DNA of 64,000 bases. It comes from Anaerotignum sp. (GTDB taxonomy: Bacteria; Bacillota; Clostridia; Lachnospirales; Anaerotignaceae). The notes under the pieces were generated by a model. The model had not been told where the DNA came from, ran no database searches, and saw nothing but the letters and a program-made list of their open reading frames with translations. The position numbers and the translations under genes are program-made. Of this stretch, positions 51,814 to 57,049 are shown one piece after another. Location of the stretch: NCBI RefSeq assembly GCF_030625865.1, contig NZ_DAOUQB010000012.1, positions 1 through 64,000 of the forward strand, given 5' to 3'. The stretch's first letter is position 1. The number at the start of each line of letters is the position of its first letter.

Positions 51814-52977
51814 TTAACACCAAAGCTTCATCATGCGCTGAAGCATCATATGTACACTTGCCTTTTCCACAGATTCAGAAGCAATTAAATCCGTTCTGCC
51901 TGCTTCCTTACCGTCCAAAATATAGATCAATTCACCAACCTTGGAGCCTTGGGCGATAGGCGCCTTAACAATAGGTAATATTTCCTGTTTTGTTTCCCAC
52001 TCTCCCTTACTCTCCTTACTCATCAGTACAGAAATTTCATCTTTCACAACAGCATTTATGCTTTCCTTCATTCCTTTTTCCACAGGAATCATACCCATAT
52101 CCTGACCAACAGGATAGCCTTTCTCTACAGTATAGTTTGCAAAGCCATAATCAAATAGCTTCATCACCTCTTGAAAGCGAATTTTATAATCAGGGGCTGC
52201 CATAACTACGCCAATTAAGCCCAAGTCATTTCGCTCCGCTGTACCCGACAAACAATACAGAGCCTTGCCTGTAGAACCTGTTTTTAACCCCGTTGCACCT
52301 TCATACCATTTAATTAGCTTGTTGGTATTGGTTAAGCCAAACTCCGACTCGCCTTTTTTTGTTTTGTGAGTGATGGTATCCATCCAAGTGGTTGTATATT
52401 CTTGGATTTCCGGGAAGTTCTTCATCAACTCTCGACTCATCAAAGCAATGTCGTACGCACTGGAAACATGACCATCTGCATCCAAACCACAGGCATTTAT
52501 AAAATTGGTGTCCTCCATGCCCAATTCCTTTGCTCTTTCATTCATTTTTTCAACAAATGCTTCTTCGCTTCCGGCAACAAACTCCGACATGGCCACCGCC
52601 GCATCATTGGCCGATGCAATGGCAATACACTTGGTCATATCCGCCGCCGTCTGCGTTTCTCCCGGCTCTAAAAACACCTGAGAACCACCCATTGCCGCTG
52701 CATGATCGCTGACCTGTACCGTATCTGTCCATTCAAACTTACCATCTGCCTGAGCCTCGTAAATCAGTAATAAAGTCATTACTTTCGTTACACTGGCAAG
52801 GGGCATTTGCTCATGGCTGTTTTTTTCAAATATTACAGTACCCGTGGACTGATCCATTAAAACAGCGCTTTTTGACTGTAGTTCTAAACCGCCGCTGCCG
52901 CCTTCCTCCGCACAAACAGAAAAGGGCGCCAGGAAACAGAAGAATGCTGTCACTGCCGCCAATATCCTTTTTTTCAT
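51814..52977 (-). CDS. D-alanyl-D-alanine carboxypeptidase (DacF/PBP5-type)
   Basis: A low-molecular-weight penicillin-binding protein that trims the terminal D-Ala of peptidoglycan stem peptides. The 387-residue protein has a signal peptide to about VCAEE (residue 23), then the catalytic SVTK (62-65), SAN (122-124) and KTG (232-234) triad. The C-terminal third is a PBP5-type beta domain ending in an amphipathic stretch (VHMMLQRMMKLWC) that may attach to the membrane. The RBS is weak (GGGGAGGAACGTGC before ATG). A DacF role in spore cortex would fit but is unproven. Confidence 0.95.
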   Translation of the reverse strand: MKKRILAAVTAFFCFLAPFSVCAEEGGSGGLELQSKSAVLMDQSTGTVIFEKNSHEQMPLASVTKVMTLLLIYEAQADGKFEWTDTVQVSDHAAAMGGSQVFLEPGETQTAADMTKCIAIASANDAAVAMSEFVAGSEEAFVEKMNERAKELGMEDTNFINACGLDADGHVSSAYDIALMSRELMKNFPEIQEYTTTWMDTITHKTKKGESEFGLTNTNKLIKWYEGATGLKTGSTGKALYCLSGTAERNDLGLIGVVMAAPDYKIRFQEVMKLFDYGFANYTVEKGYPVGQDMGMIPVEKGMKESINAVVKDEISVLMSKESKGEWETKQEILPIVKAPIAQGSKVGELIYILDGKEAGRTDLIASESVEKASVHMMLQRMMKLWC

Positions 52978-53040
52978 GCACGTTCCTCCCCAAAGACTAT
53001 ATTCCTTATTAGTTTATGTCCTCATGGGGATGGATATACC

Positions 53041-53739
53041 CTATCTTGGTTTTTCTATAATTGAGAAAACTTTTTTTGATAGCTGTAAAAAATCAATGCC
53101 CACGTCACAGTCGTATGCCAAAATGTTTACACCGGCTTCCTTTGCCTTTACCAAAGCCTCTGAAAAGGCGGCATCCCGCTCCCAATGGGGATAAAAAACG
53201 TTCACACCTTTCATCTGGATGACAAATATAACATAAGCCTCAAAGCCCGCCTCAACTGCTTGAATTAATTCCAAAACATGTTTCCGCCCTCTTAATGTTG
53301 GGGCATCGGGAAATCTGCAAATTCCATCCTCCTCCAAAGTAGCCCCTTTGACTTCGATAAACCCTCGGCGTTCTCCCGCCTCAAAGTACAAATCAAAACG
53401 GGAATTGCCAAAAACAACTTCACGCCGTAAAACAGAAACCTCTCCAATTTCCCCAATTTTCCCCTCCGCCAAGGCATCGGCAACAACTTGATTTGGTGCC
53501 TGGGAATCTATATTTACTAACGTAGACCCCTTATAAACAGAAATCAAAGAGTATTTTGTTTTACGTTCAGGGTTTTGAGCAGGTTCTAAATAAACCTTAG
53601 CACCTTCTTGCAATAATTCCCTGCAACGCCCCGTATTTTTCACATGAACCTGCGTTTCTTTCCCTTCCAAAAGCACAAAACCTGAAAAACGATTCTCCCG
53701 ACGTAAAAAAACAGCTTCTCTTATATTTTCATAAATCAT
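53041..53739 (-). CDS. sfsA: DNA/RNA nuclease SfsA family protein
   Basis: A 232-residue SfsA protein. The N-terminal OB-like part reads RENRFSGFVLLEGKETQVHVKNTGRCRELLQEGAKVYLE. The nuclease-type core has FDLYFEAGERRGFIEVKGATLEEDGICRFPDAPTLRGRKHVLEL (restriction-endonuclease-like E-x-K with D upstream), and FVIQMKGVNVFYPHWERDAAFSEAL follows. The name comes from sugar-fermentation stimulation in E. coli; nuclease activity is reported for the family. It is transcribed on its own, divergent from nothing nearby. Confidence 0.94.
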   Translation of the reverse strand: MIYENIREAVFLRRENRFSGFVLLEGKETQVHVKNTGRCRELLQEGAKVYLEPAQNPERKTKYSLISVYKGSTLVNIDSQAPNQVVADALAEGKIGEIGEVSVLRREVVFGNSRFDLYFEAGERRGFIEVKGATLEEDGICRFPDAPTLRGRKHVLELIQAVEAGFEAYVIFVIQMKGVNVFYPHWERDAAFSEALVKAKEAGVNILAYDCDVGIDFLQLSKKVFSIIEKPR

Positions 53740-53862
53740 AATATAATCTCCATTTGAAAAGAACCCCCTGTCTTATAAAACATTCCCGGAATGCTAAATC
53801 ACCAATCCAAGCTAGAATCATAAAATGGAGTTCTTTGCTTTGTAACATGTATTTTTATGTAT

Positions 53863-53883
53863 AAGGAGGAAACCCTCCTTTTT
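53863..53883. terminator. Small hairpin after rubrerythrin
   Basis: AAGGAGG pairs with CCTCCTT, with TTT on the plus strand and only ATACAT on the minus strand. It lies 5 bases past the rubrerythrin stop, but the T run is on the wrong side, so function is uncertain. Confidence 0.35.
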
Positions 53884-53887
53884 AATA

Positions 53888-54421
53888 TTAATAATTCTCT
53901 GCCTTTCTTTCAAAATACCCCTGTGGATACATACATACATGGCATTTTTTGGGGGGCTCTTTGCCAACATAAACATAACCACAGTTTCTACAAACCCAGA
54001 CAGTGTTTTCGTCACCTTGAAAAACCTTTTTCTCCTGCAATAATTGCAGTAAGTCCTGATAACGTTCTTCGTGCTCCTTTTCCACCGTGGCGACGTTTTT
54101 AAAGAAAGCTGCAATCTCAGCAAAGCCTTCTTCTTTTGCAACTGCTTCCATTTCCTTATATATTTGTGTCCATTCTTCATGCTCGCCATAGGCACCGGCT
54201 TTCAGATTCTCCACTGTGTTACCTATGCCCTGAATAAAATTTAAAATTCGCTTTGCATGCTGCACCTCGTTGTCCGAGGTTTCCTGGAAAATGCTTTTAA
54301 TTTGCTCATAGCCTTCTTCATGCGCCTTTTCCGCATAAAGCCTATAACGGTTTGCCGCCATAGATTCCCCTGCAAAAGCAGAAATAAGATTTTGCTCTGT
54401 TTTACTACCCTTTAGCTCCAT
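53888..54421 (-). CDS. Rubrerythrin
   Basis: Rubrerythrin reduces hydrogen peroxide in anaerobes. The 177-residue protein has the di-iron four-helix bundle with two E-x2-H type motifs (AGESMAANRYRLYAEKA, SDNEVQHAKRI, and ATVEKEHEERYQ). The C-terminal rubredoxin domain reads WVCRNCGYVYVGKEPPKKCHVCMYPQGYF. The usual CPVCxHPQ is changed to CHVCMYPQ but the four Cys remain. GGAGGG lies before the ATG. No PerR box was recognised in the 170-base upstream gap. Confidence 0.96.
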   Translation of the reverse strand: MELKGSKTEQNLISAFAGESMAANRYRLYAEKAHEEGYEQIKSIFQETSDNEVQHAKRILNFIQGIGNTVENLKAGAYGEHEEWTQIYKEMEAVAKEEGFAEIAAFFKNVATVEKEHEERYQDLLQLLQEKKVFQGDENTVWVCRNCGYVYVGKEPPKKCHVCMYPQGYFERKAENY

Positions 54422-54595: not shown

Positions 54596-54811
54596 TTATA
54601 TTACAAATCTACCTATAACTGCTAATATACTAATAATTCCTGTAATCAATAAAACGATAGCCAAAACAACAAACAGCCAAAGAACAGCTTTTCCCCATTT
54701 GGGTAATGTTTCTTTCTTCGTAGCCAGAGCCCAAATTGCCAAACCTGCTAATATAAGTCCTCCAAATATGGAAATCATCACAAAAATACCAATCAAAAAC
54801 ATTACGCTCAT
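54596..54811 (-). CDS. Small membrane protein (71 aa)
   Basis: Two hydrophobic segments (SVMFLIGIFVMISIFGGLILAGLAIWAL and AVLWLFVVLAIVLLITGIISILAVIG) flank a short charged loop (ATKKETLPKWGK). It is probably a two-helix inner-membrane protein. I start at ATG 54811, nine bases after GGAGG; an ATG five codons earlier overlaps that site. No family recognised and no operon partner visible. Confidence 0.65.
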   Translation of the reverse strand: MSVMFLIGIFVMISIFGGLILAGLAIWALATKKETLPKWGKAVLWLFVVLAIVLLITGIISILAVIGRFVI

Positions 54812-54960: not shown

Positions 54961-54989
54961 TTGTACTTTTTAAAAAGTTCCTTTATAAT
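54961..54989 (+). promoter_or_regulatory. Promoter with palindromic spacer upstream of the His-tailed protein gene
   Basis: TTGTAC (54961-54966), a 17-base spacer and TATAAT (54984-54989), 62 bases before the TTG start. ACTTTTTAAAAAGT (54965-54978), a perfect 14-bp palindrome, overlaps the -35 element and fills most of the spacer, a normal place for a repressor operator. Confidence 0.7.
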
Positions 54990-55050
54990 AGATGCGATAA
55001 TAGGTAATAACTTACTATGACCATTTTAAAACTTGAAAGGAGAACTTCTT

Positions 55051-56574
55051 TTGACAAATCATACAGAGGAACAAATAAAAAACCTTTCGGCAGACTATAT
55101 TTATCAGCAAGCTGTTGGCAGCCTGCTGTTGCTCTTAATGAGCGCAATGGAGGAGGAAGAAAAAGGTATTACTGCTCTTCCATATGAAATCCATCCGGAT
55201 ATTGCCGAGATCAGAAAAAAAATCCGCACTTATCTCCTTGACTTGGAAGATTTGCTGGAAAGCAATACCCAAGCACGTACCCATGCTTTAGCGGAATGCG
55301 TAGATCTAAAAAAACAGCTTTTATCCATTTATGAAATTGTATATAGCTATTTTTCTCAATGGAATATTGTTTCCACCATTATCAGCGATCAAATTGCAAT
55401 TAGAAAATATAGCGAAGATAAAGTTGCGCAAAAGCAGGTGGAATGGTCTTTATTTTTTGCTGACTGTCATGCCTTTATGGAAAGCGCAGAAACAGCATTG
55501 GAGCAAAACAATTATATGGGACAGCTTTTAAAGTGTATCCCTATTTTCATGACCAGAGATAAATTTTATGGTGAAGTAAAACAGTCTTTACACGCTGCTT
55601 TTGCAGGAGAAAGCAAAGAATTTGTCGAGAAATCATTGAAAACCTTTGAAGGTTTTTGTTGCCCGGAATCCAATGAACTTTATGGGAAATACTTCGGAGA
55701 AATCGCCGAAGTATTGGGGAAAAAACGTATAATTTTGCCCCACAATTTAACAGATGAAGCGCTTGCTACTGCCTATGATGAAATGACTGAACTATTGGAC
55801 GACTTAGAAAATATCGAAGAATATTTCTCCTGTATTCTTCACGATATCAACTCTTTAATTCTTTTATTCTACCTAACCTATACCTTTGCCGATTTAACAC
55901 AAAAAGATGTGGTGTATGCCGATTTGTACCACGCAGTATGTGATTTTGTTGGTGGAGAATGGAATTTAGCGGAAAAAGCAGCCTATTTGGATACATTAAA
56001 CGAGCAGTTAGAACAAGCTGTAGAACCTGTAATCGATCATGCCAATGAAATTGGCCGTAAGGAATACGAACTTTTAAAAACAGTAGGTTCTTTTGAAAAC
56101 TTTAACGAAGACACCAAAAAGGTTCTTATGACTGAAGAATTTATTCGTGATTGTTTCTTTGGCAATCTTAACGATGAATTGTTCCAGTTTAATCTGCCTC
56201 AGGATTTACCCCCTGTTGCCCAGAAAGAAAAAAATAGCTTGATTGAGAAATTTATCGAGAAAACAAGAAACAGCTTTGATACCTTGCCTGTACAAACAAG
56301 GAAAATTGCCATGCAAACCCTTTCCAGCGCATTGCCTCCCATTGGCACGGTCAAAGATTTGATGGATCGTATTATGGATGCCATTGACAATGTATCTACC
56401 GATGAACAAAGAATTTTAATTGTTGATAAAGTTGGCATGGTTTTTGCCGAACACGGATATGAATCCATTGCCACCCCAGAAGGCGAAGAGGAACACCACC
56501 ACGATTGCGACTGTGGCCACGAACATCATCACCATGAACACCACGATTGTAACTGTAATCACGACCACCATTAA
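55051..56574 (+). CDS. Unrecognised 507-residue protein with His/Cys-rich metal-binding tail
   Basis: A large, acidic, mostly helical cytoplasmic protein without signal peptide or membrane segment. I start at TTG 55051 (MTNHTEEQIKNLSADYIYQQAVG), nine bases after AAGGAG; the frame continues upstream through the ribosome binding site. The body alternates amphipathic helices (for example DLYHAVCDFVGGEWNLAEKAAYLDTLNEQLEQAVEPVIDHANEIGRKEYELLKTVG). The last 29 residues (479-507) hold 13 His and 4 Cys, with CDCGHEHHHHEHH in the centre, a probable nickel, cobalt or zinc binding tail. No catalytic motif or known family seen. It is cotranscribed with the VOC protein gene, 30 bases downstream. Confidence 0.85.
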   Translation: MTNHTEEQIKNLSADYIYQQAVGSLLLLLMSAMEEEEKGITALPYEIHPDIAEIRKKIRTYLLDLEDLLESNTQARTHALAECVDLKKQLLSIYEIVYSYFSQWNIVSTIISDQIAIRKYSEDKVAQKQVEWSLFFADCHAFMESAETALEQNNYMGQLLKCIPIFMTRDKFYGEVKQSLHAAFAGESKEFVEKSLKTFEGFCCPESNELYGKYFGEIAEVLGKKRIILPHNLTDEALATAYDEMTELLDDLENIEEYFSCILHDINSLILLFYLTYTFADLTQKDVVYADLYHAVCDFVGGEWNLAEKAAYLDTLNEQLEQAVEPVIDHANEIGRKEYELLKTVGSFENFNEDTKKVLMTEEFIRDCFFGNLNDELFQFNLPQDLPPVAQKEKNSLIEKFIEKTRNSFDTLPVQTRKIAMQTLSSALPPIGTVKDLMDRIMDAIDNVSTDEQRILIVDKVGMVFAEHGYESIATPEGEEEHHHDCDCGHEHHHHEHHDCNCNHDHH

Positions 56575-56604
56575 AACTTTCACATAAGAAAAAGGAGGCG
56601 CCTT

Positions 56605-56970
56605 ATGTTTACTTTTAATCACTATAATTTTAATATTTTAAATTTGGAAAAAAGCTTAAAATTCTATGAAGATGCCTTGGGATTAAAGGAAGTCCGCAGA
56701 TTGGAAGCTCCCGATGGAAGTTGGAAACTGGTTTATCTGGGTGATGGCGTAACCGATTTCAGCTTAGAATTGACCTGGCTTAAAGACCGCACCCAGCCTT
56801 ACAATTTAGGAGAAAATGAGTTTCATCTTGCCTTTGAATCAGCGGACTTTAATGCAGCTTATGAAAAACACAAAAAAATGGATTGCATTTGTTTTGAAAA
56901 TCCTGAAATGGGTATTTATTTTATCAATGACCCTGATAATTACTGGATCGAAATAATCCCAAAAAAGTAA
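56605..56970 (+). CDS. VOC-family protein (lactoylglutathione lyase-like)
   Basis: A 121-residue glyoxalase/bleomycin-resistance fold protein. Two beta-alpha-beta-beta-beta modules are visible. Candidate metal ligands are His6 (FNHYNFNIL), a Glu in SLELTW, His74 (EFHLAFESADF) and a Glu in YWIEIIPKK, the pattern of metal-dependent glyoxalase I. Clostridial glyoxalases often use nickel or cobalt, which would suit the metal-binding tail of its operon partner. GGAGGCG precedes the ATG. Detoxifying methylglyoxal is likely but unproven, since VOC enzymes are diverse. Confidence 0.85.
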   Translation: MFTFNHYNFNILNLEKSLKFYEDALGLKEVRRLEAPDGSWKLVYLGDGVTDFSLELTWLKDRTQPYNLGENEFHLAFESADFNAAYEKHKKMDCICFENPEMGIYFINDPDNYWIEIIPKK

Positions 56971-57022
56971 CCAAGGACAGCAAAATCCCTATCTCCAAGC
57001 CCACCTGTTCGAAAAAAAATAA

Positions 57023-57049
57023 GACCCTTCTTTTTAGAAGGGTTTTTTT
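57023..57049 (+). terminator. Terminator of the His-tail/VOC operon
   Basis: ACCCTTCT pairs with AGAAGGGT over a short T loop and is followed by TTTTTT, 53 bases past the VOC stop. Confidence 0.92.

Follow-up and report, generated by a model that had tools for sequence, protein, structure and literature searches.

The DNA analysed here (the window) is a stretch of 64,000 nucleotides (nt), on whose plus strand a two-gene unit was found at positions 54961-57049 (Table 1). The first gene encodes a protein of 507 amino acids (aa) that consists of a long body and a tail rich in His and Cys, and the second encodes a VOC protein whose open reading frame (ORF) begins 30 nt past the stop of the first. 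A first-pass annotation of the sequence had described a TTG-started protein with 13 His and 4 Cys in its last 29 residues and a VOC gene with a metal-ligand pattern 30 nt downstream; both were borne out, the former by reading of the ORF and the latter by alignment of VOC copies. Here we report that the body belongs to an essentially vertically inherited family without a match in the libraries searched, and we weigh whether its tail could serve as a metal buffer.

The gene model is well supported by its upstream region. When the regions upstream of the window gene and of 10 relatives were aligned (n = 11), the pattern TTGT-N2-17-TATAAT, the Shine-Dalgarno sequence GAAAGGAG and the TTG start were found in all 11, which is far better support than the match to the promoter consensus provides: the TATAAT of the −10 element is perfect, the −35 element agrees with TTGACA at only 3 of 6 positions, and a generic promoter scan does not list the promoter. 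Thus, the promoter proposed in the first-pass annotation stands by its conservation, but with a weak −35 element.

The same annotation regarded the unit as controlled by a 14-base-pair (bp) palindrome in the promoter. The palindrome is perfect as described, but control by it was not established. Perfect palindromes of 14 bp number 11 in the window and 2-11 in 10 Markov-simulated windows, a comparable upstream stretch is hit by one in ~6% of 2,000 simulations, and, counting the window itself, 4 of 8 genus members and 0 of 3 relatives outside the genus keep a promoter palindrome of at least 12 bp. Near-copies with one mismatch were found at 6 distinct sites in the genome (12 over both strands), versus 18 for a reversed control. 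An operator role is therefore not supported, the palindrome being near chance, poorly conserved and without any genome excess of near-copies. The terminator predicted at the end of the unit is present as a stable hairpin followed by a T run (hairpin at 57021-57046, −14.4 kcal/mol, 11 pairs), but a terminator scan of the region yielded 2 such sites versus 2.2 in shuffles, so its support comes from position and stability, not from rarity.

Table 1. Features of the two-gene unit in window coordinates
Feature	Position	Strand	Basis or remark
Promoter TTGTAC-17-TATAAT of the two-gene unit	54961..54989	+	TTGT..17..TATAAT in 11/11 upstream regions
14-bp perfect palindrome ACTTTTTAAAAAGT inside the promoter	54965..54978	.	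Near chance; operator role not established
Shine-Dalgarno sequence GAAAGGAG	55035..55042	+	Kept in 11/11 upstream regions
507-aa protein, TTG start; helical body residues 1-470, no described family	55051..56574	+	ORF, family searches, model
Weak internal repeat, first copy (residues 149-190)	55495..55620	+	hhalign, N half vs C half, P 1.2e-4, probability 55%
Weak internal repeat, second copy (residues 414-455)	56290..56415	+	hhalign, N half vs C half
His/Cys tail, residues 479-507; 13 His, 4 Cys; one CDCGHEH and one CNCNHDH unit	56485..56571	+	
121-aa VOC protein, glyoxalase-I-like; metal positions H6/E55/H74/E116	56605..56970	+	
Intrinsic-terminator-like hairpin and T run	57021..57049	+	Folding energy, position

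The body family and its predicted fold

The nearest loci come from Chakrabartyella and from species of Anaerotignum that include A. neopropionicum and A. lactatifermentans. On this basis we take the order searched to be Lachnospirales and the own family of the window genome (f1) to be Anaerotignaceae in the naming of GTDB; further families are numbered f2, f6, f12, f15, f17, f21, f22 and f24. The body gene was found in 36 of 36 genomes of the own-family sample (own genome included). An order-wide search with a 56-member profile detected it in 187 of 392 genomes, with 57 of the 58 own-family genomes listed being positive, while a class-wide profile search found it in only 16 of 391 genomes, 7 of these 16 lying inside the order. 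The family is mostly single-copy. A gene tree of 77 members, built quickly, with several long branches and with no clade for f22, showed 8 changes for 9 taxonomic families. This is the minimum possible and indicated that inheritance is essentially vertical. The alignments A2, A3 and A5 comprised 56, 32 and 27 of the 77 tree bodies, respectively; the weak matches L067 and L068 had been left out before alignment, the latter being a COG0523-type protein that was matched via a His loop. No relative of the body was obtained by tblastn against plasmids and against phages or by a pattern scan of viral contigs, and these results, together with the vertical tree, led us to reject a mobile-element origin of the gene. 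A second copy of the body gene, broken by several internal stops, was noticed near the start of the chromosome record of Clostridium sp. MD294 strain ASF356 (G263:C1:2197-3603, L216).

The first-pass annotation recognised no family for the body, and neither did our searches of Pfam, NCBIfam, PHROGs, PADLOC and the PDB, which returned no convincing match. For the window protein, the body matched no Pfam family at E 1, and the best values in NCBIfam (E 0.05), PHROGs (0.16) and PADLOC (0.033) did not go beyond chance. Its relatives gave scattered weak Pfam matches (best E 1.7e-4); among the families listed (25 of 34), none occurred in more than 3 of 37 relatives, and in the 56-member set no listed Pfam family occurred in more than 1 of 56. 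The best NCBIfam match over the relatives (E 0.0013) was likewise seen in 1 of 56, and the 27 full-length members matched three Pfam families at E 0.01, each in one member only. One such match, Galaxin_repeat, sits in the Cys/His tail of the f2 member L119. We read these scattered weak matches as chance. Among PDB sequences, the best match to the body was an adhesin coiled coil at E 0.019, and open-access literature searches found no paper on the family by title or abstract start among the matches listed. The body family is undescribed in the sense of the libraries and the literature searched here.

An AlphaFold2 model of the body, built from a 37-sequence alignment, is all helical and scored a predicted local distance difference test (pLDDT) value of 91.2 and a predicted template modelling (pTM) score of 0.87. 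Each half of the model starts with two long helices (residues 2-41 and 73-122 in one, 235-274 and 306-345 in the other), followed by shorter helices. When the profiles of the two halves were compared, a single matching stretch was detected at 12% identity (see Table 1 for its position and significance), which suggests that the body carries an old internal duplication. The C half folded alone only poorly (pLDDT 68, pTM 0.32), and the halves therefore probably pack against each other. Fold comparison gave a best E of 0.08 with Foldseek against the PDB and of 0.014 against a viral structure library, and the VIA fold search reached a best Z of 7.1 with a root mean square deviation of 23.7 over 210 residues, below the value of ~13 that this tool gives for helical models. 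These searches used the whole body and neither half separately, and a known fold in one half is thus possible. The candidates that emerged, namely ClyA/AhlB-type helical pore-formers, the membrane proteins Nramp and bestrophin, and MukB, are generic long-helix proteins; the best VIA Z falls where the tool itself advises caution with helical models, and nothing was read into these matches.

The His/Cys tail and its likenesses

Judged by composition and occurrence, the tail is not a product of chance, because His accounts for 45% of its residues versus an average of 1.5% in the bodies and because it recurs across families. The C-terminal end could be read in 35 own-family proteins, from 34 loci and the window, and in 33 of them at least four His follow the body; a contig end truncates the G008 gene, which was excluded from tail and gap counts. 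More distant members were read at 40 loci plus L065 and L066, taken from the top and from lower down among the matches listed and thus not at random. The tail was present in every member read of f12 (14/14) and f17 (2/2), in 6 of 7 of f24, where the remaining one has 3 His and 2 Cys, and in 3 of 10 of f2. At a cut of four His, the tail state changes seven times on the tree.

What is kept across several families is the His/Cys composition, while the sequence changes. The length after the body ranges from 11 to 124 residues within f1, and the units vary, for example, from HHHHDCDCGHDH-like ones to HHEHHHCDHGHH. The tail of L048 is encoded by a tandem array of a 30-bp unit in 10.7 copies with 90% matching, one tail holds 66 His, and the tails of L122 and L127 are without Cys. 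In f2, the members L119, L113 and L117 have a His/Cys tail, and their close kin L108, L112 and L118 have an acidic tail ending in approximately NFFGDD. The own-family gene of G014 lacks the tail in every frame; a frameshift was rejected as the cause, as there is no His-rich frame downstream.

When 13 genomes were scanned with a DNA pattern for C-x-C-G-H-[DE]-H, 11 of them gave matches, at 24 places in all; the body gene accounts for 21 of these, and a reversed control matched none. The three other places were the N-termini of two small proteins (G013 and G031) and one 8-codon frame. Small proteins of this kind carry CGCGHDHDH or a similar motif at the N-terminus (L139, L155), and Pfam assigned one copy (G031; L139) to DUF1292. 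They share the same kind of unit, but on a small protein with an unrelated body and at the opposite, N-terminal end. Of the 13 places in the window's own genome that read CAYCAYCAYCAY, the one in the 507-aa gene falls within an open frame of 514 codons, whereas no frame around the others exceeds 122 codons. This pattern misses His stretches that are interrupted by other residues. No other gene-length frame of the genome has four adjacent His.

The closest likeness was found on a COG0523-type protein of G007 (L068:6765-7871; A. neopropionicum, as inferred), which matched cobW at 6.7e-40 and CobW_C at 8.8e-7. It carries an internal loop, GCHCGHNHEDGHHHNCCAHEHHHD, that closely resembles the tails of the body family and has the same make-up of CxCGHxH and a His run. 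In the COG0523-type protein this His/Cys stretch is internal to a G3E GTPase, whereas the body family has it at the C-terminus of an unrelated, helical protein. An excerpt of PMC2770081 describes COG0523 as a family of putative metal chaperones. We regard the resemblance as the best sequence hint that the tail could bind metal. When the own genome was searched for the G3E GTPase family (HypB, UreG, COG0523), three matches narrowly passed the curated cut-off (E 1.4e-4 to 3.0e-4), and the best of these is Era-like by Pfam; look-alikes in relatives are Der-like and Ffh-like. Thus, no HypB, UreG or COG0523 metallochaperone is evident in the own genome.

UreE, SlyD and Hpn are known His-rich metal stores or chaperones, and a C-terminal arrangement of Cys-x-Cys and His is found in the SEC-C motif of SecA and YecA. 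The layout of the latter is alike, but no SEC-C match was obtained in the window protein or the 27 full-length members, and the tail differs in its repeated units and poly-His runs. HypB, UreE and Hpn have a His-rich stretch like the tail, with its 13 His in 29 residues, which by analogy might hold several Ni or Zn ions; by Pfam, no such domain is present in the body, and the body-family tail adds Cys-x-Cys units. Specifically, a cobW, HypB or UreG GTPase domain was not found in the 507-aa protein (Pfam, E 1), nor cobW in the 27 full-length relatives (E 0.01). An excerpt of PMC7055735 reports multiple Ni bound to His-rich regions in certain HypB proteins and mentions storage or buffering as a suggested function. 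SlyD, an FKBP isomerase with a metal-binding C-terminal domain according to an excerpt of PMC11198818, likewise combines a soluble body with a C-terminal metal-binding domain, but the FKBP domain is absent from the 507-aa protein and the 27 full-length relatives (Pfam), and the body here is helical over its 470 residues and shows a weak internal repeat. As the protein fails the HypB, SlyD and SEC-C domain tests, it was not filed with any of them and at most works like them. His-rich metal stores are a known kind, while no library searched has an entry for the body family.

The VOC partner and the gene neighbourhood

The partner is a member of the Glyoxalase/VOC superfamily (PF00903, 49.7 bits versus a cut-off of 20.6), and its nearest solved structures are lactoylglutathione lyases (e.g., 1f9z, 4mtq and 5d7z), to which it aligns over nearly the full length. 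Its four metal positions, assigned by this alignment and by the numbering of the E. coli enzyme, are invariant in 27 of 27 aligned VOC copies. The scores fall below the curated cut-offs for GloA (NF050074, 85.1 versus 165 bits) and glyox_I (TIGR00068, 53.5 versus 120 bits), and the protein is therefore named only glyoxalase-I-like, a relative of the short-chain GloA enzymes and not a confirmed GloA. Short glyoxalase I chains, with domains of ~120 aa, are typical of the Ni-type class according to an excerpt of PMC5412262. With 121 aa, the VOC protein fits this class in length and is a probable Ni-type glyoxalase.

Strong VOC orthologues (E 7e-47 or better) were found in 29 of the 36 own-family genomes. 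In 27 of these 29 (27/36), the orthologue lies downstream of the body gene on the same strand, at a distance of 11-42 nt in 26 and past an intervening gene in one (the VOC start for these gap lengths was fixed by a text rule). Both the tail and the VOC neighbour are kept in 8 of 8 genus members; their loss in close relatives, named in the first-pass annotation as evidence against its reading, was not found, and neither was the other counter-evidence that it named, a confident match of the body to a known family of unrelated role. The adjacency persists where upstream synteny is gone, indicating that the pairing is not mere leftover gene order, and it was observed only within the own family. 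VOC orthologues of 55-71% identity also exist outside this family, but not beside the body gene: G038 and G055 carry body and VOC genes on separate contigs, and five genomes (G047, G052, G053, G057 and G059) have a VOC orthologue without a body match.

Tail and partner do not go together even in the own family. Six genomes (G009, G010, G012, G023, G024 and G025) have the tail but no clear VOC orthologue (none, or E 2e-5 or weaker), although some VOC-less assemblies are incomplete (G025, 73%; G012, 84%). There is no VOC match in G008. Conversely, the tail is missing from G014, where the VOC gene adjoins the body gene, and from G021, where the VOC gene lies elsewhere. The neighbours of tailed members in other families are different again: GlgB and a P-type ATPase in f2, and radical SAM or response-regulator genes in f12. 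These data indicated that the tail belongs to the protein, not to the operon.

Two further features border the unit in the window. A 71-aa hydrophobic mini-protein with two likely membrane helices (by eye) is encoded on the minus strand at 54596-54811, divergent from the 507-aa gene with an upstream region common to both; a counterpart of 53-66% identity lies upstream in 5 relatives. Beside the body gene, a block of DacA-like carboxypeptidase, SfsA and rubrerythrin genes occupies 51814-54421 on the minus strand and is partly conserved across the family.

Proposed metal buffering and the alternatives

The reading we favour, to which we give a little less than an even chance, is that the protein is a metal buffer or store, made of a helical scaffold and a multi-metal His/Cys tail, with a probably Ni-using glyoxalase as a partner that shares the pool. 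It would be a vertically inherited Lachnospirales protein whose long-helix, all-alpha body acts as a cytoplasmic scaffold and in many lineages bears a tail of C-x-C-G-H-[DE]-H-H-H-H type units. The tail would be flexible and hold several transition-metal ions (Ni, Zn or Co). Slippage of its short coding repeat could lengthen or shorten it and so tune capacity, and since length would change in this way, selection would act on composition and capacity rather than on the exact sequence. In the own family, where the body gene heads the unit with the short-chain glyoxalase-I-like enzyme, co-expression may give this probably Ni-using enzyme access to a common metal pool, and the protein need not be a chaperone dedicated to it.

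Several observations weigh against this reading, and the strongest comes from members without a tail. The tail is absent in all members read of f6 (4/4), f22 (3/3), f21 (1/1) and f15 (1/1), in 7 of 10 of f2 and in the three members read outside the order. Nine tail-less members (L136:7065-10071, L066, L130-L135 and L137) lie in a conserved operon of the body gene, a gene for a 110-aa protein (no Pfam match for the L137 copy), DUF2953 (YtfI-like) and Spore_YtfJ, and in L136 the body gene overlaps by 4 nt a preceding 415-aa gene (cinA by eye). The tail-less members of f6, f21, f22 and f15 adjoin DUF2953 and Spore_YtfJ, not metal genes. Because so many members are tail-less and nine of them sit in YtfJ-linked operons, the body may have an older role; the ancestral role may have been something else, possibly without metal, and in tailed lineages metal could serve this older role as a structural or regulatory ligand. 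Beside the window gene, no metal transporter or metalloregulator was recognised (mostly by eye; six proteins were tested with Pfam). G3E matches at 1e-10 or better occurred in 5 of the 11 genomes examined, the tailed G007 and G015 among them, so that the tail is not a simple substitute for G3E metallochaperones. Since relatives carry the CxCGHDH unit N-terminally on a DUF1292 protein as well, it may be a general module serving some other purpose. Finally, G282, an own-family genome that is 90% complete, has no body match.

The first-pass annotation had suggested that the 507-aa protein may store metal for the VOC enzyme or deliver it there, or may sense damage linked to that enzyme; the evidence speaks neither for nor against such sensing. 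As a dedicated metallochaperone, the body would dock on the neighbouring gene's glyoxalase I and the tail would hand over nickel. The frequent same-strand pairing, seen even without upstream synteny, and a VOC chain as short as in the usual Ni-type class (excerpt of PMC5412262) are what one would expect of such an arrangement. However, the body is spread more widely than the pairing, VOC orthologues outside the family lie away from the body gene, and the six tailed genomes without a clear orthologue, together with G014, show that tail and VOC come apart. Moreover, we know of no bacterial glyoxalase I that needs a dedicated chaperone. We consider this explanation improbable, and the link to metal survives in a looser form: the likeness to the COG0523-type loop and the Ni-type length of the VOC protein keep a metal role plausible, while dedicated service to the VOC enzyme is not supported. 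The metal could also be structural and not cargo, if the tail were a zinc-organised interaction or oligomerisation module of SecA/YecA-like layout and the body an adaptor in protein quality control, the envelope or other housekeeping. The CxCGHxH core could make a compact metal site, and the surroundings of tail-less relatives have a housekeeping character (e.g., cinA by eye, DUF2953 and Spore_YtfJ at L136). Against it stand the lack of a SEC-C match noted above, the tails of L122 and L127 without Cys, and a widely varying unit number, which together with the 66 His of one tail fits capacity better than one structural site. On balance, such a module is unlikely, yet it deserves attention.

A role of the body in spore formation or the coat, with a tail that binds metal in the spore, would account for the nine tail-less members that precede a Spore_YtfJ gene and for the position of the body gene near SpoIVA in three genomes (divergent in G235, C17:51083-53378; also G228 and G306). 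Across the 392 genomes, SpoIVA was present in 156 of 187 body-bearing genomes versus 117 of 205 others (p 1.4e-8, without kinship correction). These 117, however, have SpoIVA without a body match, and 31 of the 187 body-bearing genomes are without SpoIVA above the cut-off, including the near-complete G149, G062 and G070. The conserved promoter is, moreover, of the sigma-A kind. The SpoIVA-less genomes and this promoter make a purely sporulation-specific role unlikely, and we hold out little hope for the sporulation link as a whole. Least of all do we expect the tail to be a neutral low-complexity expansion without any metal role, which we think very improbable: the tandem array of L048 and the highly variable tail length could be explained in this way, but not the His/Cys composition that is kept across families despite sequence change, nor the lack of any other gene-length frame with four adjacent His in the own genome.

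Metal buffering thus remains our preferred reading of the tailed protein. A bolder version of it, in which the protein is the main metal buffer of much of Lachnospirales, an undescribed family with a possibly new all-helical fold and a disordered, slippage-tuned tail that supplies a co-transcribed nickel glyoxalase in Anaerotignum relatives, seems doubtful to us. The family is present in about half of the order's sampled genomes and has no library entry, yet it is conserved enough for a confident fold. Its tails resemble metal reservoirs that differ in size between lineages. If they do bind metal, the protein would show how a bacterium without an evident HypB or COG0523 chaperone holds scarce Ni, Zn or Co, and the family would offer a natural series of tail lengths for testing capacity.

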